Below are positions 15,172-64,000 of a stretch of DNA of 64,000 nt, one piece after another. Numbering within the stretch: the first letter of the stretch is position 1; each line of letters starts with the position of its first letter. Location of the stretch: positions 186,001-250,000 of the forward strand of contig JASEFH010000001.1 of the NCBI GenBank assembly GCA_030019205.1, in the 5' to 3' direction. Under the pieces are notes generated by a model. The model saw nothing but the letters and a program-made list of their open reading frames with translations. It made no database searches and was not told where the DNA came from. Source of the DNA: Methanomicrobiales archaeon (lineage in GTDB: Archaea; Halobacteriota; Methanomicrobia; Methanomicrobiales; JACTUA01). The position numbers were made by a program, and so were the translations under genes.

Positions 15172-15193
15172 ATACAGAAAAAGGGTACTTATT

Positions 15194-15204
15194 ACTATTT
15201 AAAT
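15194..15204 (-). promoter_or_regulatory. TATA box for the PRC-barrel gene
   Basis: Minus-strand AATTTAAATAG lies 23-33 bases upstream of ATG 15171, placing the transcript start at or next to the start codon. Confidence 0.5.
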
Positions 15205-15256
15205 TGTTGTGATTCGGTATTTTTTGGTGAAATCTGGTTGTATTTGCCCGAATTTT

Positions 15257-15466
15257 CTACCTTACAGTCTCCACAGCCATACGGATGTCGGGCGCTTTAA
15301 CAGTCTTCCTCCCTGCATGACTGGCCAGCTTGATCGCTTCTTTTGCAATCCTGTTCGCATACTCCTCCATGATCGAAGCAAGCTCCTCGGCTGCATCCGC
15401 ACTGACACGTTCCGCTCCCGCGTTTTTAATGATCCTGCCGACAGGCGCATGGGGTAACTCTGCCAT
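15257..15466 (-). CDS. Archaeal histone
   Basis: A 69-residue single histone fold of the HMf/HMt type: helix 1 [19 protein letters not shown], long central helix with [28 protein letters not shown], and a short C-terminal helix. It would dimerise and wrap DNA into nucleosome-like structures. I chose ATG 15466 rather than 15478 because archaeal histones begin close to MAELP; the AGGAGTG upstream is compatible. Own promoter at 15548-15558. Confidence 0.95.
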
Positions 15467-15547
15467 TGTTTCATCCACTCCTGGAATCCGGCAACCCTCT
15501 CATCCCGAACGGCTGCCAGAGGTCGTTGGACACAGAATAGAGATTCC

Positions 15548-15558
15548 AATATATATAC
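15548..15558 (-). promoter_or_regulatory. TATA box for the histone gene
   Basis: Minus-strand GTATATATATT predicts a transcript start near 15525 and a leader of about 60 bases. The element is one of the strongest TATA boxes in the window, in line with high histone expression. Confidence 0.6.
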
Positions 15559-15605
15559 TTAACTCCGTGAGCGGCATGGTACGCGTCCCCTGGAGGAGAA
15601 AAGAA

Positions 15606-54060: not shown

Positions 54061-54528
54061 GGAATACGCCGGCCCAATTCCGCTGCCACGCCCTGCCGCC
54101 TTCGGGCGGAGCAGAGGATCGGGGTCCCCGGGATGCCCTTCCGCACCGCCACGGATGGGGAGATCGACGCCGGTGCCAGCCCGCCGCTGCATGCACGGGA
54201 ATAGGAAGAGGGATATATGGCTGCAGAACCTCCAATGCAATTACTTTCTTTTCGAGAGCGAGCGGGATACCAAGCCCGGGATCAAAAAACAAGTTTTTTA
54301 TATCATGCAGAAATTTATCAAGATACCGAAACCGTGAACAAATTTCCTTCGGATTCCTATTACAGTTGGTTTATATATTGAAATAATTTAGAAACATATT
54401 TAAGCACAATTGCGTAATAAAATCACATTAAAATACTTCTCTATCCCACCGATCCTTTCTACAGATGTCGGTTTCTGCACCGGGAAGGTCGGTGAGAGCA
54501 ATGGGTGAAACATGGGTTGAGGTGTACG
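54061..54528. other. AT-rich promoter region of the giant surface protein
   Basis: 468 bases. The left part is ordinary GC-rich spacer; from about 54220 to 54450 the DNA is AT-rich with several TATA-like elements (54371-54380, 54394-54405, 54424-54435), pointing to a strong or regulated promoter. A 12-codon frame from ATG 54501, preceded by GGTGAGAG, ends at 54539 after overlapping the giant gene's start codon. Confidence 0.55.
54371..54380 (+). promoter_or_regulatory. TATA box for the giant surface protein
   Basis: TTATATATTG is the best TATA match in an AT-rich stretch. It implies a leader of about 125 bases, longer than usual in this window; the elements at 54394-54405 and 54424-54435 would give shorter leaders. 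Confidence 0.45.
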
Positions 54529-57500
54529 ATGGATGCTGATGCGACTGGATCGGTCAAGGGCAGCAGTGGACGGTCGCTGCTCGCCCTGATCGCGGCAGGT
54601 ATCCTTCTGACGACGTGCCTAGTGGCGCCGCTGGTGGCGGGCGCCCTGGATGTGTCGGGTTTGGATGCCAGTATCGCGATCGTGAAATACACAAATGGTA
54701 ATCTGTCAGAGCAGGGGCCGGGGCCGCTTATCCCTGTAGGATCGCCCGTCAACTGGACCTACACCGTGACCAACACCGGGAATGTCACCCTGACTGGCAT
54801 CCGGGTGGTCGATGACAGGGAAGGGGAGATCTGCGTTGTCGAGAGCCTCTCCCCGGGCGCGTCGTTCACCTGCAATAAGAGCGGTTCTGCGAAGCTCGGT
54901 CAGTACAAGAATGTCGGGACGGTGATGGCTACGGTCTCCGCTGAGCAGAAGAACTACATCCTCATCTCTCTCACGGAGATCGCTGCCGGTACAGTCACCG
55001 ACTCCTGCACCAGCTACTACAGGGGCGTACACAGCGGACCGGCCATCGATGTCGAGAAACAGGTCTCGGTGGACGGGGGGAGCACGTTCTACGATGCGGA
55101 TGATCCCTGGGGACCTGTGGTACAGCCGGGGTCCCCGGTCCAGTGGCGTTTTCTGGTAAACAACACCGGCGAGTTCCTCCTCCAGAATGTTACGGTGGTG
55201 GATACAGATGCTGATCTGAACATCACGTGCCCGGAGTCGAAGCTCTGGAAGTTCGGGCCCGGCGAAGACATGGTCTGTTTCGCGAACGGGACGGCGGTTA
55301 AAGGCCCGCACAAGAACGTTGTCAATGCATCGGGCAGTCACGGGAATATATGGGTCTATGCCGAGGATCCCGCCCACTACTTCGGCACATACAGTCCGGA
55401 GCCGTCCATCGCTGACCTGATCGTCACCAAGTCTGCCAACGTCTCGACCGTGTACGAAGGGGACCCCGTCGAGTGGACGATTCTCGTAACGAACAGCGGT
55501 TCCGATACGGCGACCAACATCAGCGTGGAGGATGACATCGCACTTCTCACGAACTATACCCTTCTTGACGCCACGCCGGAGTTCACCTCCGGCACCGTCT
55601 GGAGCCTCCCCTCCCTGGAGCCTAATAGTAGCACCATTTTCAGATTGGTCACCGCATTCGATACCGTCGGAACCCGAACGAATGCGGTGACAGTCATGTC
55701 CGATGCCTGGGACCTCAATACCTCGGACAACTCTGCGACGGCGCAAATTCAAGTGATCGAGAGGGTGGCAGGGCTGACCGCCGTGGAGATCGAGAAGGCG
55801 ACGGAATGGGGCGGGCAGTTCGGCGATGGCCTGATCGTCCCCGTCGGCGAATCCATCCGATGGAACTACACGGTGACCAATACCGGCAATACGGTCCTGA
55901 AGGATATATCGGTAACCGACGACCGCTCGATCACCGTGAGTTGCCCACAAACCTGCCTTGCGCCCGGCGAGACGATGCACTGCACCGCCAGCGGCACCGC
56001 TACGGCAGGATACTATGAGAACACCGGTACCGTCACGGCGCACGCCGATGGCGTCTGCGGCGCCATCACCGATCAGGATGCCAGCCACTACTACGGCTGG
56101 ATGCCGGGAACTGCGCTCGTCCAGGGGACGGCGTTCGACGATACCGATGGGGACGGCATCCTGGACGACGGCGAGGAGGGCATCCCGGGAGTCGAGGTGA
56201 CCTACCGGAACGCCAGCGGATCATCGGTGCAGACAACGGACGCCGACGGGCGGTATGTGTTCGTCAACCTTCTCCCCGGCGAAGCCTTCGAGGTCTCGGC
56301 ATCCCTCCCCGCCGGATACTTCCGGACCACGCCCGGCAGCACCTTCAGCACTACGTCGGCCGAAGGGCAGGTGATCGACTTCGGATACGCGACTGCTGAT
56401 TCGAACTATGCCGTGGTCTTCGGTACGGTCTTTGAGGATGCCGATCACGACGGCGAGCGGGACCTGGGCGAAAGCGGGCTCTCCAGCGTTGTGGTGAACC
56501 TCACCGATAGCAGTGAGGTGGCGAGTGCCCTGACCGACGGGTACGGGCGGTACACGCTTCGCACCTGCGCGAATGGGACGTACGCCGTCCATGAGGCCAA
56601 TCCCCCCGGCTACGTCAGCACAACGCCGGATACCGTGAGCGTGAACCTCGTCGTCGGGACATCCGGACCGAGCCCCGTCGACTTCGGGGACTTTTCCGGT
56701 GCAAAGATCACGGGCAAGGTCTTCAACGACACGAACCTGAACGGGATCGACGACGGAGAGCCCGGCCTTGCCGGTGCCGTCGTATCGGGAGGCGGTGATG
56801 CCAGCACGACGGAATCTGACGGCCTCTTCACGCTGTACGTATCCGCATCCGGCGAGATGACCGTAACCGAGACGAATCCCGCGGGGTATGTATCGACCAA
56901 TGCAATCCCCGGTGCCGGGGCGTTGAAATGGGATAACGACAACCTGAATATCACCATCGCTGCTCCAGGGACGGAGTATGGCGGGAACCTCTTCGGGGAT
57001 GCGGCAGCTGCTGGCGTCGCTCTCATCTGCGGAACGGTCTTTGACGATGCCAACGGCAACGGCGTTCAGGATCCCGGAGAGTCGGGACTGGCCGGAGCGA
57101 CGGTGACGCTGAATGGACAAGATCCGCGGACCACCGGTCCCGGCGGAACCTTCGCCTTCGCCGTCCAGGATACCGGGATATATATCGTTGAAGAGGAGAA
57201 TCCGACAGGATATCGCTCCACGACACCGGATACCATCCATGTGAACGTAAGTGCGCTCGGACAGAGCCATTACATCGGTTTTGGGGATACGTGTGCCACC
57301 TCCTTCAGTTCCGTTATCGGGATCGTCTTTGACGACGGGAATCTCAACGGCGTGATGGATCTGGATGAAACAGGCATTCCTGACGTCGTCATCTCTCTCT
57401 CGGACGGACGGGAGACGAAGACGGGCGTGTATGGGCAGTACTCCTTCGCGATTGATCGAATAGGGAGCGTCACCGTAGCAGAGGAGGATCCGGCGGGATA

Positions 57501-60500
57501 CATCTCCACCACGCCGAATACCGTCGATGTGCATATCGGAGCCCTTGGGGAGAAGTACCCCGTCTGCTTTGGCGATGCCCTGCAGGCGAGCATCGTCACG
57601 ATCACGGGCCAGGTCGTGAACGACACCAACGGCAACGGGCGGAAGGACGACGGCGAGGCGGGGCTTGCGGGTGCGACCGTCGCCCTCTCATCCGGCATGT
57701 CGCAGACGACGGGTTCGGACGGCTGCTTCCAGCTCTACGGGCCTCCCGGCGCCGTGATCACCGTCACCGAGACCAACCCGCAGGGATACCGCTCCACGAA
57801 CGCCATCCCAGGTGGATCGGGTGATAAGATCGGCAACGACACCGTGCGGGTGGCAGCTCTGGAAGCAGGCGCCCGGTCAGAAGGCACGTTATTCCTCGAC
57901 ACCCTCGAAGGTGGGGAGGACCTCGGCATCGACGTGGAGAAGAACGTCCTGGTGAACCAGTCCGGATCCTGGGTGAGATACGAGGGCGAGGTGGATGCCG
58001 CCAATTCGAGCGTGCAGATCCCCGTCCTCCAGAGCGGGACGCCGTTCAGGTGGGAGATTCGGGTGAAGAACACCGGCACGGTGCCCGTGGACCTCACCTG
58101 GTATGACATCAATAACGACGAAACGCCTCGCAACCTGAGCGACGAGTGCCCCGGCCTGCCGGCATCGCTCGATGTCGGAGGGGAGTATACCTGCACCATC
58201 GATGACACCGCACAGGCCTTGGCAGAGTATACCATTGGGGATTACATATCTTCGCGTTCTTCGCTCCAGACAAACCAGGTCTTTGTGGATGCCTCGTACG
58301 GCTACTGGCACACATTCGACGAGGACAGCGCCGCGTATCTCGGCGTGGAAAACCCCTTCGGAGTGAAGAAGCTGGTTTGTGGAGTGGAAAACGGTTCTCC
58401 TGGCCTCTTCGATGCGAATGCTCCCCCCGGTCCCACCGTGTACACGTCGATACCGACGCCGGTCTGGGTGGTGCTCGTCTGGAACTTCTACAACGAACCT
58501 GCAAACCTCACCTGGACCGACGTGCAGAACGGGATAGCGGTGAATATGAGCGATGAGGAGATGTTCTACGGTGAGGTCCCGAAAACGATCGATGCCTGCA
58601 ACTTCTCGCTCTTCGGGTTCGGTGAACCGAATCTGGGCCTGAACTACAACAACGTGACGGTCGCGGCAACCTACGATACTCTTCCGCCAGCAACCGCGAG
58701 CGATATTGCGTACTATACAGGCATCACCGAGCACGACGAATCCGGCGTTGTGGAGGTTCTGGTGTTCGAAGATGAGAACGGCAACACGGCATGGGACGAA
58801 GCGGCTGAACCGGGCATACCGGGAGTCACGGTCCGTCTGTACGACTCGAGCGGTCCTGTGACGACGGCATACACCGACGCCGAAGGGAGGACTGCGTTCC
58901 GGGGTCTCGCGCCCGGAGCATACACGGTCGTCGAGACGGACCCCGCCGGCTATGCGAGCACGACGGCGAACATCCGCCATGTGTCGGTGCGTGCAGGGGA
59001 GACGCTCGAGGTAAGGTTCGGCGATCGGCTTCTGCCGTCAAACAGTATCGGCGGTACCGTCTTCCACGACCTGGACGGCAGCGCCGACTGGAACGATGAC
59101 GAGCCCGGGATCGGCGGTGTGACCGTTAGCATCTCCCGGACCGAATGGTCGGGGAGGCAGACCACGACGGACGAGTACGGCCAGTTCACATTCGACGACC
59201 TGGGGTCGGGATCGTATGTGGTGATCGAGACCGATCTCCCCGGCTACGCGAGCACCACGCCGAATATCCAGACTGCGATCATCTATGAGGGCAGCGTCGC
59301 GGTCTACTTCGGCGACCGCTACGTTGGACCGGAACCCCCGGACACGGCGACGATTCTCGCAACCGTCTTTGATGACCTGAATAACAACACTATCTGGGAC
59401 GATGGCGAGCCGGGCATCGGCGGCGTGAGGGTGAACGCCACCAACGGGAGCGTCACGCTCCAGTGCACCACCAATGCCCTGGGCCAGTGCCCGTTCCTCG
59501 ACCTTGCTCCGGATACGTACACCCTGATGGAGACCGATCCCGAGGGTTACGTGAGCATCACGCCGAACATCCTGACGGTCACCGTGGCAGCAGACGATGT
59601 GCGGCAGGTATACTTCGGAGACCTGTACGTCGAGCCCGAACCCCCGCAGGCCGCGGCGATCTGGGCAACGGTCTTCGACGATCGCGACGCGAACGGGCTA
59701 TGGAACGATAACGAGCCCGGCATCAGCGGGATTCAGATCCATCTGGAGAACGCCAGCGGCACAGTCTCACAGCAGTCCACCGGCGAGTTCGGGCACACGG
59801 CGTTCATGGGACTGGCGCCCGGGATGTACGGCGTGATCGAGACCGATCCGGCGAACTACGTCAGCACCACGCCGAATACCGTGAACGTCAGCGTGGAGGC
59901 GGCGGAGATCGTGCAGGTGTTCTTCGGAGACAGGGAGCAGAAGGTCGTGCCGCCCACGCCCGAACCCACACCGAAGCCCCGGCCGGGGCCCTACTACGGC
60001 TCTCGGGCATTCGGCTCCGGCGGCCATCGGTGCGACTTCATCGAGAACGGAACGCTCTCACCATCGGCGGAAGGCATCGTTCCCCGGGAGATCACCATCT
60101 GCGCCGTGGATGGCATCGGCGAGCTGATCGTCGGCAGAGGGACGCTGGCCCTGGCCGCCGGTGCCAGCCCGCTCCCGTATGCGGTCATCAAACCCCTGCA
60201 GGCCCTCCCATCCGGGAGCGGACCCGGGTATGCCGCCACGGGCTTCGCCTACGATCTGGCCCCGCTGGACGCCACGTTCCAGCCTCCGGCCACGCTCCGC
60301 ATGGAGTTTACACCGGAGGAGTGGGCCGTCCTCGAGGGCAGATCCCTCGTCCTCCGCCGGTGGGACGGTGCAGCAGGAGTGTGGGCAGACATGCCTGCGG
60401 ATATCGACACCGCCGGACGTGTGGTGACCGCCGAGGTCGGAGAGCTGGGCGTCGTCGGGCTCTTCGAGCAGGTGCCGCTGCCGCCGGTGGCCGGTGGACC

Positions 60501-61029
60501 CGCCGAACCGGCGCCGTCGGGAACCCCCGCTCCGGGATTCGACTGGTTCCCCTACCTGATGGCCTTCCTGCTGGCCCTGCTCGCGCTCCTGCTGGCCGTC
60601 TGGTGGAGCCGCAGGCCTGAGCGGGAGGAGGAGCTGCCGCCCCTGCCGGAGAGGCCGCTGCCCGGCGGCACGTATGCGGCGAAGCCCGTCCTCGTTGCAG
60701 GCATGGAGTCGGCCTACGGCGCCATCATAGGGGTGATCAACGATATCGAGGCGCAGCTGCAGGATCTGGAGGCGATGGTGCAGGGCCCCGCCCGCCACGT
60801 ATTCACTCCGCAGGATGCGGCTGCCGTCGCGGACCGCTTCTTCTACACGGCGCAGGTTGCCGAGGAGCGGATGAAGGATCCGGACATCCGACAGTTCCTG
60901 ACCGCCGAGCAGATCGAGCAGCTCAACGCCCAGTTGAGGGAGGCGGTGGCGAAGATGGTTCTGCTCTCGCAGACCTCCGAACCCCTGCGGCTGGCCGTGG
61001 ACGCGAGGATCGGCGAGGCGGGACGATAG
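54529..61029 (+). CDS. Giant surface protein with DUF11-like and SdrD-B-type repeats, C-terminal membrane anchor
   Basis: A 2,166-residue protein. Signal or anchor helix at residues 16-38. Residues 60-530 hold four DUF11-like modules (for example VNWTYTVTNTGNVTLTG). Residues about 530-1120 carry six SdrD-B/Cna-B-like repeats (GTVFDDANGNGVQDPGESG...FGD), residues 1120-1410 two further modules (RWEIRVKNTGT), and residues 1410-1800 four more SdrD-B repeats. A Pro-rich linker (VPPTPEPTPKPRPGP) leads to a beta-domain, a transmembrane helix at about 2004-2027 and a soluble cytoplasmic tail of about 140 residues. It is probably a cell-surface adhesin or envelope protein. GAGGTG precedes ATG 54529; the longer frame from 54505 is less likely. 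Confidence 0.88.
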   Translation: MDADATGSVKGSSGRSLLALIAAGILLTTCLVAPLVAGALDVSGLDASIAIVKYTNGNLSEQGPGPLIPVGSPVNWTYTVTNTGNVTLTGIRVVDDREGEICVVESLSPGASFTCNKSGSAKLGQYKNVGTVMATVSAEQKNYILISLTEIAAGTVTDSCTSYYRGVHSGPAIDVEKQVSVDGGSTFYDADDPWGPVVQPGSPVQWRFLVNNTGEFLLQNVTVVDTDADLNITCPESKLWKFGPGEDMVCFANGTAVKGPHKNVVNASGSHGNIWVYAEDPAHYFGTYSPEPSIADLIVTKSANVSTVYEGDPVEWTILVTNSGSDTATNISVEDDIALLTNYTLLDATPEFTSGTVWSLPSLEPNSSTIFRLVTAFDTVGTRTNAVTVMSDAWDLNTSDNSATAQIQVIERVAGLTAVEIEKATEWGGQFGDGLIVPVGESIRWNYTVTNTGNTVLKDISVTDDRSITVSCPQTCLAPGETMHCTASGTATAGYYENTGTVTAHADGVCGAITDQDASHYYGWMPGTALVQGTAFDDTDGDGILDDGEEGIPGVEVTYRNASGSSVQTTDADGRYVFVNLLPGEAFEVSASLPAGYFRTTPGSTFSTTSAEGQVIDFGYATADSNYAVVFGTVFEDADHDGERDLGESGLSSVVVNLTDSSEVASALTDGYGRYTLRTCANGTYAVHEANPPGYVSTTPDTVSVNLVVGTSGPSPVDFGDFSGAKITGKVFNDTNLNGIDDGEPGLAGAVVSGGGDASTTESDGLFTLYVSASGEMTVTETNPAGYVSTNAIPGAGALKWDNDNLNITIAAPGTEYGGNLFGDAAAAGVALICGTVFDDANGNGVQDPGESGLAGATVTLNGQDPRTTGPGGTFAFAVQDTGIYIVEEENPTGYRSTTPDTIHVNVSALGQSHYIGFGDTCATSFSSVIGIVFDDGNLNGVMDLDETGIPDVVISLSDGRETKTGVYGQYSFAIDRIGSVTVAEEDPAGYISTTPNTVDVHIGALGEKYPVCFGDALQASIVTITGQVVNDTNGNGRKDDGEAGLAGATVALSSGMSQTTGSDGCFQLYGPPGAVITVTETNPQGYRSTNAIPGGSGDKIGNDTVRVAALEAGARSEGTLFLDTLEGGEDLGIDVEKNVLVNQSGSWVRYEGEVDAANSSVQIPVLQSGTPFRWEIRVKNTGTVPVDLTWYDINNDETPRNLSDECPGLPASLDVGGEYTCTIDDTAQALAEYTIGDYISSRSSLQTNQVFVDASYGYWHTFDEDSAAYLGVENPFGVKKLVCGVENGSPGLFDANAPPGPTVYTSIPTPVWVVLVWNFYNEPANLTWTDVQNGIAVNMSDEEMFYGEVPKTIDACNFSLFGFGEPNLGLNYNNVTVAATYDTLPPATASDIAYYTGITEHDESGVVEVLVFEDENGNTAWDEAAEPGIPGVTVRLYDSSGPVTTAYTDAEGRTAFRGLAPGAYTVVETDPAGYASTTANIRHVSVRAGETLEVRFGDRLLPSNSIGGTVFHDLDGSADWNDDEPGIGGVTVSISRTEWSGRQTTTDEYGQFTFDDLGSGSYVVIETDLPGYASTTPNIQTAIIYEGSVAVYFGDRYVGPEPPDTATILATVFDDLNNNTIWDDGEPGIGGVRVNATNGSVTLQCTTNALGQCPFLDLAPDTYTLMETDPEGYVSITPNILTVTVAADDVRQVYFGDLYVEPEPPQAAAIWATVFDDRDANGLWNDNEPGISGIQIHLENASGTVSQQSTGEFGHTAFMGLAPGMYGVIETDPANYVSTTPNTVNVSVEAAEIVQVFFGDREQKVVPPTPEPTPKPRPGPYYGSRAFGSGGHRCDFIENGTLSPSAEGIVPREITICAVDGIGELIVGRGTLALAAGASPLPYAVIKPLQALPSGSGPGYAATGFAYDLAPLDATFQPPATLRMEFTPEEWAVLEGRSLVLRRWDGAAGVWADMPADIDTAGRVVTAEVGELGVVGLFEQVPLPPVAGGPAEPAPSGTPAPGFDWFPYLMAFLLALLALLLAVWWSRRPEREEELPPLPERPLPGGTYAAKPVLVAGMESAYGAIIGVINDIEAQLQDLEAMVQGPARHVFTPQDAAAVADRFFYTAQVAEERMKDPDIRQFLTAEQIEQLNAQLREAVAKMVLLSQTSEPLRLAVDARIGEAGR
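56100..57900 (+). repeat. Six tandem SdrD-B-type repeats (protein and DNA level)
   Basis: Each unit is about 290 bases, coding for a pattern of V-F-D-D-x-N-x-N-G-x-x-D-x-G-E-x-G-[IL]-x-x-V, a strand-rich middle, then ENPxGYxSTTPxT and FGD. Unit starts are near 56130, 56420, 56710, 57030, 57320 and 57605. DNA of the units is similar but not identical, so recombination may add or remove units. Confidence 0.7.
58740..59930 (+). repeat. Four tandem SdrD-B-type repeats (second block)
   Basis: Units start near 58760, 59055, 59360 and 59670 and share E-P-G-I-x-G-V and ETDPxGYxSTTPNT signatures. They are more alike than those of the first block, suggesting later duplication. Confidence 0.7.
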
Positions 61030-61429: not shown

Positions 61430-62104
61430 CTATCTCGACGGAGCCCTATTCTGCGCGCACTCGAGGGGATCTTTCATACCGGCCCGCTCGAACGCGCTCC
61501 GCCGTGCGAGGCAAGACGCGCACCGCCCGCACGGCCGATCTTCTCCCGAGTAGCAGGACCACGTGAGCGAGTAGTCGACGCCGAGAGTCTGCCCGATCCG
61601 CAGGATGTCGAGTTTGTCCTGCTGCAGGTAGGGTGCCCGCAGCGTGATGGGATAGTGGTCGCAGGCCTCCAGGGCCTTCTTCATGGCATCGATGACGGCC
61701 GGGCTGCAGTCCGGGGAGAGGGCGGCGTCCTCCCTGTTTACAGCGGTGAAGAGAGTCCGCACGCCCCAGGCGAGGCAGTAGGAGGCCGCGACGGAGATGA
61801 AGATCATGTTCCGGTTGGGAACGATCACCGACCGCCCGAGATCGTCCTCCGGGATCCCCTCCGGGATGGGTATCTCGGGATCGGTGAGGGCGCACCCCCG
61901 CGCCATCTCCCCGAGCGCGGGGAAGTGGATGACGATATGCTGGATCTCCAGTTTCCGAACGAGCGCCTTGGCGAACTCGAGTTCTTTGATGGATTTCTGA
62001 CCGTACGTGAAGGTGATGGCCACGGGGCGGAGCCCCATGTGGATCACCTCGTAGAGGAGCGTGGTGGAGTCCATACCTCCCGAGAAGAGAACGGCAGCTT
62101 TCAT
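61430..62104 (-). CDS. queC: 7-cyano-7-deazaguanine synthase
   Basis: A 224-residue PP-loop enzyme. Motif AVLFSGGMDSTTLLYE is at residues 4-19, and the zinc site near the C-terminus reads SCYSGEDRPCGRCASC. QueC converts 7-carboxy-7-deazaguanine to preQ0, the precursor of archaeosine at position 15 of archaeal tRNA. ATG 62104 was chosen because homologues start at KAAVLFSGG; the 26-residue extension has no family support. Isolated here, as the other archaeosine genes are not in the window. Confidence 0.95.
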   Translation of the reverse strand: MKAAVLFSGGMDSTTLLYEVIHMGLRPVAITFTYGQKSIKELEFAKALVRKLEIQHIVIHFPALGEMARGCALTDPEIPIPEGIPEDDLGRSVIVPNRNMIFISVAASYCLAWGVRTLFTAVNREDAALSPDCSPAVIDAMKKALEACDHYPITLRAPYLQQDKLDILRIGQTLGVDYSLTWSCYSGEDRPCGRCASCLARRSAFERAGMKDPLECAQNRAPSR

Positions 62105-63305
62105 GGGAATCGTTTTGTCTCCAGGGGGATGGTTGAATCGGATAGATCTCGCAATCACTCCAGAATTCGGCAGCGGGCTCATATCAATGTGGAAACGAGC
62201 CGGTCATTTCAGGTTTCTGCCGGGCACGTATGTGGGAAAACCCGGGGCTGTTACCGTGCCTTCGGCGTGCACTCCGGTTCGCCGCGGAAAGCCGGCGTGA
62301 TCCGTTATCTCCAACCATCTCGATTGTTCGCGTGTCTTTTATGCACCGTGCCTGTACGTAGTGGGGGAGGAGATCCTAAAAAGTACACTCCGGCGCGACC
62401 TCAACCCTTCTTCTAGAGGGGTGTATGGAGCATCTTCGAGCACCAGACCGATAGGGAGCGCGCTATGCTACGACTCGAAGAGGCATGCGAAGTTCCCTCC
62501 GATTCTCCGGAGGATAAACAGTCCATGAACCCGCACGCATGGCTATCTTGGCATCCCTCATCTGGGCGGAAGATGATGACTTGTGCTGTATCAAGGTGCG
62601 TATCGTTTTGTCCCGGGCAACCACCCCTCGCACGTGCGACGGGATGGGAGCGCCAAACAATTGAGGAAGGTATAACGGGGGAGACCCTGAAACACAACTG
62701 CCAACCCAACGAGAGATGGGTGCGACCCCGATGGGGCATAATGGAACAGAAGTACAATTCTTGGGAGACTTCGGTGGAGGACAGCCCCCTGGATGTACGG
62801 TGTAAAGGACATAGAGGTCTCCCTAAAACTATTTTCAGCCTGATAAATGCGAGTAAAAAGCATGGCCATCGATCATCTGCTCGACTCTGCAGAATGTTGG
62901 GATGTCCGCAGTATTACGACCCGCAGAGCAATGGTATGATATGGCCTATGAGAGCGGCGAACGGATAAATAATCGGTAACATCAATTCTCGATCCCTCGA
63001 TCCGTGATTCCTTCGATCACAAATAATCTCATGCACAGGTGTGCCGGGATCGCACCAGAGGGTTGGCCCTCTGCCCCAGAAATGATGGATAGCCGGATAG
63101 CCGCACCAATTGATACATTTCCCGAAAGTGTGCGAACCTGTAGAAGGGAGAAGATATCCATTGTTAAAAGGAGAACAATATTCGCAGAATTCGCAGAAAC
63201 GGAAGTGGTATGCGTTCACGCTGTCGGATGGGACGCAAGAATTTCTTATGAATCAGGCGGTCGGTACATCTAGACTCATCAATCGTGACGGTCTCCCGAT
63301 CGGAA
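62105..63305. other. 1.2 kb stretch without a recognised gene, upstream of queC and downstream of tRNA-Val
   Basis: Composition is less GC-rich than the surrounding genes, especially 62420-63290. Several frames up to 167 codons are open on either strand but are unlike known proteins. Local hairpins are visible: CCTCCG-CGGAGG (62496-62514 region), ACCCA...TGGGT and CCCC-GAT-GGGG (62703-62737 region), and the palindrome CGCACGTGCG near 62629. The clustering of hairpins suggests a structured RNA or a decayed mobile element. A short direct repeat TTCGCAGAA occurs twice near 63180-63197. Confidence 0.4.
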
Positions 63306-63379
63306 TGGGCTCGCTGAGATTCGAACTCAGGACCTCCGCCATGTCAAGGCGACGTCATAACCGGCTAGACCACGAGCCC
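63306..63379 (-). tRNA. tRNA-Val (anticodon GAC)
   Basis: A 74-base tRNA on the minus strand. The acceptor stem GGGCTCG pairs with CGAGCCC, the discriminator is A at 63306, the T arm contains GAGTTCGAATCTC, and the anticodon stem-loop CGCCTTGACATGGCG presents GAC, which reads the valine codon GUC. No intron and no encoded CCA. It lies about 90 bases upstream... of the serA 3' end on the same strand side, in a gap with low GC. Confidence 0.93.
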
Positions 63380-63470
63380 GTCTGAGATTGCAGCCTTAAA
63401 TATTAGGTTACTGGATCATAAAATGGTTTTGCCATCCTCCCGAGAAGGGTGAGGACAGGGCGGGGTTGGA

Positions 63471-64000
63471 TCAGATCTTCGCAAACTTCGCCGAGAAGAT
63501 CCCCTCCTTGCTGCGGATCTGTTCCATCACCTCGGGCGGGACCGGCGAATCCACGTTCAGGACCATGATCGCCTCCTCGCCGGGCTTGATCCGCCCCACC
63601 TGCATGCCGGCGATATTGATTTTGTTTGCGCCCAGGATCGTGGACGCCCTGCCGATCACGCCCGGCTGGTCCAGGTGGCGCGAGACGACGACGTAGCCTT
63701 CCGGAATCATGTCCATCGTATACCCCCCGATCGCCACGATCCGGCTGCGGCCTTTCATGAAGATCGTACCGCTCATCGTCTCCTCCATCGCATCGGTCTT
63801 CACGCGGATGGTGATCAGGTTCTTGAACCCGAGGGACTCTTCCGTGACCGCCTCCTTGATGGCGATCCCGCGTTCTTTGGCAATGTACTCGGCGTTGATG
63901 ATATTGGAGGGCGACTGGAGGATGGGATCCATGAGCCCCTTCAGCGCGCGCCGCGTGATATACCGGGTGTTCACCGAGGGCTGGGAGAGTTCTCCGCCGA
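63471..64000 (-). CDS. serA: D-3-phosphoglycerate dehydrogenase, C-terminal part (partial, 5' end beyond window)
   Basis: The minus-strand frame is open to the window edge and gives the last 175 residues or so. They contain the allosteric substrate-binding-like region (VNTRYITRRALKGLMDP...TEESLGFKNLITIRVKT) and a C-terminal ACT domain (GYVVVSRHLDQPGVIGRASTILGANKINIAGMQVGR, ending RSKEGIFSAKFAKI), as in long SerA proteins. SerA oxidises 3-phosphoglycerate in serine synthesis; the ACT domain commonly mediates serine feedback. The catalytic domains lie outside the window. Confidence 0.92.
   Translation of the reverse strand, partial: GGELSQPSVNTRYITRRALKGLMDPILQSPSNIINAEYIAKERGIAIKEAVTEESLGFKNLITIRVKTDAMEETMSGTIFMKGRSRIVAIGGYTMDMIPEGYVVVSRHLDQPGVIGRASTILGANKINIAGMQVGRIKPGEEAIMVLNVDSPVPPEVMEQIRSKEGIFSAKFAKI

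Follow-up and report, generated by a model that had tools for sequence, protein, structure and literature searches.

Archaeal MITEs (miniature inverted-repeat transposable elements) usually have little beyond their ends in common with their partner elements, and on the 3' side there is often virtually no similarity, as reported in PMC3852290. That paper also lists an ISMma12-related MITE in Methanosarcina acetivorans that is 140 bp long and present in 24 copies, with 16-bp inverted repeats and 3-bp direct repeats (PMC3852290). The repeat reported here resembles that element, as it is described there, in being short and non-coding, with inverted ends of about 16 bp, several intergenic copies, 3-bp duplications at some of them, and an IS5-family partner in the host genome. 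It is unlike the M. acetivorans element in its length (93–96 bp), in the five copies found, and in being old and diverged, and the two are likened by description only. A literature search limited to archaeal and Methanomicrobiales MITEs, judged by title, returned nothing on MITEs in the Methanomicrobiales. The data presented below consist of five copies, ends in common with a full-length IS5-family element, and 3-bp duplications in some of the copies. The repeat is very probably a decayed copy of a MITE family that is related to an IS5-family element but short and non-autonomous; the copies would have been inserted, with a 3-bp duplication, by the transposase of that element acting in trans.

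The host genome is 2.73 Mb in 73 contigs and is 99.6% complete. Methyl-coenzyme M reductase is present, and the host is therefore a methanogenic archaeon; among 14 control genomes in the same search, only the two methanogens were positive. The host genus is represented in the comparison set by one genome, the host's own. The window, the whole 64-kb stretch of DNA that was analyzed, lies within contig C1. The order along it is queC, the stretch at 62105–63305, tRNA-Val(gac), and then serA (Table 1). An earlier ATG would lengthen the queC ORF upstream to 62182 (250 aa), and the start at 62104 agrees with the Pfam match. Just beyond queC is a 2174-aa ORF (54505–61029) with a membrane stretch at its C terminus and repeated units that we take to be SdrD-like or Cna-B-like. 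An earlier note on this DNA described the stretch as lower in GC than the window, devoid of recognizable proteins, and adjoining tRNA-Val on its 3' side, and each of these descriptions is accurate. The GC content is 52.5% compared to 61.9% for the window. This low value is not unique because the gaps at 54061–54504 (0.491) and 15172–15605 (0.486) are lower still. The longest gap in a rough codon-usage gene map of the window is 62183–63470 (1288 bp, with the tRNA inside), and the next longest is 979 bp. The coding scores are negative for all eight ORFs of at least 60 aa that were scored across the stretch, including those overlapping the repeat, and none of the eight region ORFs tested reached a Pfam family cut-off.

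Table 1. Features of the stretch between queC and serA, with window coordinates.
Feature	Position	Strand	Evidence or remark
queC	61430–62104	-	Flanking gene; Pfam QueC, E 6.9e-56
Spacer, no signal found	62105–62813	.	Genome search, family genomes, Pfam, hairpins, folding, coding scores
Left flank of window copy, ATA; expected 3-bp duplication degenerate	62811–62813	.	1 of 3 bp agrees with right flank
MITE-like repeat, 96 bp, one of five genome copies	62814–62909	+	Genome search, models R1 (E 1.7e-26) and R2; boundaries from IS ends
Left inverted end GAGGTCTCCCTAAAAC	62814–62829	+	3 mismatches to IS end
Internal part of repeat, including best-conserved block 62838–62904	62830–62893	+	78–85% identical in three further copies
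Right inverted end GCGGACATCCCAACAT, read on minus strand	62894–62909	-	3 mismatches to IS end
Right flank of window copy, AGT; expected 3-bp duplication degenerate	62910–62912	.	1 of 3 bp agrees with left flank
Spacer, repeat to tRNA, no signal found	62910–63305	.	Genome search, family genomes, Pfam, hairpins, folding, coding scores
tRNA-Val(gac)	63306–63379	-	Flanking gene
serA, C-terminal part	63471–64000	-	Cut by window end; Pfam PGDH_inter and ACT over 63471–63998

The stretch contains a dispersed repeat with inverted ends that the earlier note overlooked. A search of its own genome with the stretch identified three further places with 78–85% identity (E 6e-12 to 6e-15), all of which align to 62810–62907. 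A sequence-only model of four copies (R1) found a fifth copy on contig C8 (E 2.7e-6) that played no part in building the model. A model of all five copies (R2) recovers the same five copies in the host genome. Outside the host, the best R2 match within the family (10 genomes) had an E value of 0.31. The best R1 match in the 198 other genomes of the order (E 0.0021; at most 20 candidates scored per genome, stricter filters) was taken as chance. The length of the four copies with definable ends is 93–96 bp. All five copies are located outside the neighboring genes with Pfam matches. They are found between a DUF7289 gene and eIF-1A, between thioredoxin and a DUF2795 gene, 3' of a ferredoxin-domain gene, between a DNA methylase and a nitrogenase-like gene, and between queC and tRNA-Val(gac). 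Conservation in the middle block of the repeat is no lower than in the inverted ends, an unusual pattern for a MITE.

Another reading takes the repeat as a piece of a protein-coding gene family that has decayed, visible in the 167-aa ORF at 62465–62968. A single codon position in the frame of the long ORF accounts for 32 of the 62 pairwise differences among the window copy, L002, and L004. These counts are not independent, and the third-position bias is unexplained. However, the ORF scores −0.15 per codon compared to a mean of +0.20 for the training ORFs, it did not reach a Pfam cut-off, and the repeat copies carry stops and indels. In a protein search of 61 genomes, the only matches within the host genome were two of the repeat copies; the matches in three others were weak, with internal stops and E values of 9.6e-4 or worse. 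A decayed protein gene was rejected based on the coding score, Pfam, and the protein search, and we give this origin next to no probability.

The window copy taken alone is poor evidence for a mobile element. Each end has three mismatches, its arms share 9 of 16 positions when compared by eye, and there is no clean duplication. The arms are clearest in L002 (14 nt, 86% complementary) and L139 (23 nt, 74% complementary). In an automated repeat search, such arms were not listed for L003, L004, or the window copy, and the left end of L003 is disrupted. The 16-mer GAGGWCATCCCAAAAC was originally read off the consensus of the small copies; the independent part of the evidence is its exact matches at the ends of full-length elements. 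Allowing at most one mismatch, GAGGWCATCCCAAAAC occurs 23 times (9 + 14) in the host genome compared to zero for the reversed pattern. A contig end is less than 200 bp away at 9 of the 20 places listed from this total of 23, as expected because repeats break assemblies. Seventeen stretches around such places were read, and five complete elements of 837–846 bp with the 16-bp ends GAGGWCATCCCAAAAC were identified in the host genome. The full-length elements code for parts of an IS5-family transposase, and the longest open stretch in each is 122–235 aa. The stop-free stretches of two of them match DDE_Tnp_1 (E 3e-20) and DUF4096 (E 8.6e-19). The C7 fragment scores 117.3 bits against NCBIfam NF033580 (IS5 family transposase; cut-off 110), and the C51 fragment scores 73.1 bits, which is below the cut-off. 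Judged by these protein matches, the full-length partner of the repeat is an IS5-family insertion sequence (IS). The same 16-bp end occurs with a different interior (CGCCAATGCGACC...) on the G000 contigs C6 (L233, near 1470) and C49 (L235, near 2227), so the 16-bp ends seem to belong to another type of element as well.

Within the window, four matches to GAGGWCATCCCAAAAC with at most three mismatches were found compared to a shuffled mean of 0.89, and none of 100 shuffles reached four. Two of the four are the facing ends of the repeat. A lone match with three mismatches at 62367–62382 (+) has no facing partner, and the chance expectation for the window is 0.89. Matches with at most one mismatch are present in 71 of the 199 genomes of the order, with 117 in G066 and 80 in G027. 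Five genomes (G066, G027, G047, G107, and G037) have 65–117 of these 16-bp ends each, and elements related by this end seem, from the match counts, to be strongly expanded in some lineages of the order. A strict paired-end pattern gave no such element in the host genome and one match (G057) in the 199 genomes; the small copies escape this pattern because their ends are decayed. In a wider contig collection, the 16-base pattern is too unspecific, with at least 119 stretches and matches listed from unrelated organisms. The 16-mer is also found in four viral contigs.

Target-site duplication was assessed by comparing the three bases on each side of nine elements, four small copies and five full-length, with the boundaries placed at the IS ends; L003 was left out. 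An exact 3-bp duplication is found in four of the nine elements, namely, two of the four small copies scored (L002 and L004) and the IS copies on C21 and C51. The duplicated sequences are CAA, ATG, CAT, and TAT. Overall, 19 of the 27 flanking bases agree. When one boundary is shifted by −6 to +6, only 3–12 of the 27 bases agree, with at most one exact duplication. The flanks of L139 agree at 2 of 3 bp and those of the IS copy on C5 at 0 of 3. The window copy does not have a clean duplication (1 of 3 bp), and it thus reads as old and decayed.

The interiors of the small copies were compared to those of the full-length elements. The left interior of the window copy (bases 17–60) resembles the IS left ends with equal spacing, and its score was reached by 37 of 5000 shuffles. 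This likeness is weaker in the other copies, where 143 (L002), 286 (L004), and 316 (L139) of 5000 shuffles reached the score. We did not detect similarity between the right interior and the IS right end in the four copies tested, with 943–1929 of 2000 shuffles reaching the observed scores (945, 1929, 943, and 1290). The family fits the kind of MITE described in PMC3852290. The repeat shares terminal inverted repeats, 3-bp duplications at some copies, and some left-interior similarity with the full-length IS5-family element (837–846 bp, NF033580), but it is without a transposase and its right interior is dissimilar. We infer that the MITE family was derived by internal deletion from an IS5-family insertion sequence with the ends GAGGWCATCCCAAAAC. 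The IS transposase would act in trans on the shared ends to mobilize the small copies, whose insertion between genes would have duplicated 3 bp of the target. The window copy is presumably now immobile.

Inverted ends could also form the closing stem of a structured RNA, and the five intergenic loci would then encode a non-coding RNA family or RNA hairpins. The alignment of five copies shows two-sided changes in 4 of 15 end pairs compared to a shuffled mean of 1.4, a count reached by 13 of 500 shuffles. Each of these changes is confined to one copy, which is L139 for three of the four, and an element with inverted ends would be expected to show them as well. Conservation of the middle block also counts in favor of an RNA, and L003 folds better than its shuffles (z −2.67, 4 of 200), as does L002 to some extent (z −1.63, 15 of 200). 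In contrast, the window copy folds worse than shuffles (z +0.88 on the plus strand and +0.52 on the minus strand), L004 is also worse (z +0.20), and L139 has a z-score of −0.21. The paired cells amount to 69.3% compared to 68.2% in shuffles, a value reached by 198 of 500. An alignment of four copies has two-sided changes in none of the 16 predicted pairs, and there is no Rfam match. An RNA family also leaves unexplained both the ends in common with a transposase-coding IS and the 3-bp duplications, and we consider it very unlikely. Conservation of the middle block and the better-than-shuffle folding of L003 and L002 would be explained if the copies had been retained for a function at the DNA or RNA level, such as that of a small RNA or 3'-end element, but the chance of this is very small indeed.

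The position of the stretch on the 3' side of a tRNA gene raised the idea that an element once integrated at the 3' end of tRNA-Val and left it as a relic. The sequence beyond the tRNA varies among the relatives viewed, which fits this idea. The first 60 bases after the tRNA (63246–63305) also lack a three-T run, whereas 17 of 19 compared loci, the host's among the 19, have one, and the usual 3' flank of tRNA-Val may have been replaced here. On the other hand, the earlier note saw no copy of the tRNA 3' end that would mark an attachment site, and our search of the host genome confirms this, with matches only in the tRNA-Val(cac) and tRNA-Pro genes. The eight region ORFs gave no integrase and no other match above a Pfam cut-off, there is no phage match, and the stretch is only 1.2 kb. 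The repeat resembles mobile elements integrated at tRNA genes in lying 3' of a tRNA gene, but it is without an integrase or a tRNA-end copy and was inserted 396 bp from the tRNA 3' end. We rejected a tRNA-targeted element because there is no tRNA-end copy, integrase, or phage match, and such a relic is extremely unlikely. The earlier suggestion that the stretch holds the remains of an integrated element is thus correct for one decayed 96-bp transposon-like copy, but not for an element targeted to the tRNA, given the 396-bp distance and the missing integrase and second end.

Gene order was compared among relatives at the queC–serA junction, a check that the earlier note had proposed. A search with serA gave matches in 76 of 80 genomes of the order, and 30 loci (own included) were compared. 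tRNA-Val(gac) is beside serA in 23 of the 30, own locus included, and this arrangement is therefore kept, but queC was found at the own locus only. The DNA beyond the tRNA extends for 574–1353 bp in the 19 of 23 loci viewed, so a more distant queC would escape. Because the relatives keep serA beside tRNA-Val without a queC found there, the spacer may mark a gene-order breakpoint; the queC–tRNA junction may be a rearrangement at which the spacer was formed.

The element accounts for 96 bp of the 1201-bp stretch. The earlier note had called the stretch hairpin-rich and a possible long non-coding RNA. There are four perfect stems of at least 6 bp in the whole stretch compared to a shuffled mean of 2.20, and four were reached by 52 of 300 shuffles, which is near chance. 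A mild excess is found at 62490–62740, a sub-region chosen by eye beforehand, where there are two stems compared to 0.44 in shuffles (two reached by 24 of 300). The folding energies of 120-nt windows are ordinary on both strands, with mean z-scores of +0.22 (plus) and +0.04 (minus). At gathering scores, Rfam identified the tRNA alone, and the single sub-threshold match at a lax threshold is outside the stretch. A DNA-level comparison with the family's 10 other genomes showed no conservation of the stretch. A long structured RNA was rejected based on the hairpin counts, folding z-scores, and Rfam, and neither the hairpin description nor the RNA proposal of the earlier note finds support. The remaining ~1.1 kb is spacer in which all the searches run here detected no gene, RNA, or other function.

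Low-GC, gene-free DNA beside a tRNA should not be taken for an integrated island or an RNA gene unless checks of this kind are made. The repeat belongs to a new, small MITE family of a well-known kind in a methanogen genome. Its value is mainly for annotation, where it accounts for an apparently mysterious stretch, and it illustrates that a decayed copy is traceable to its partner insertion sequence through the ends alone.
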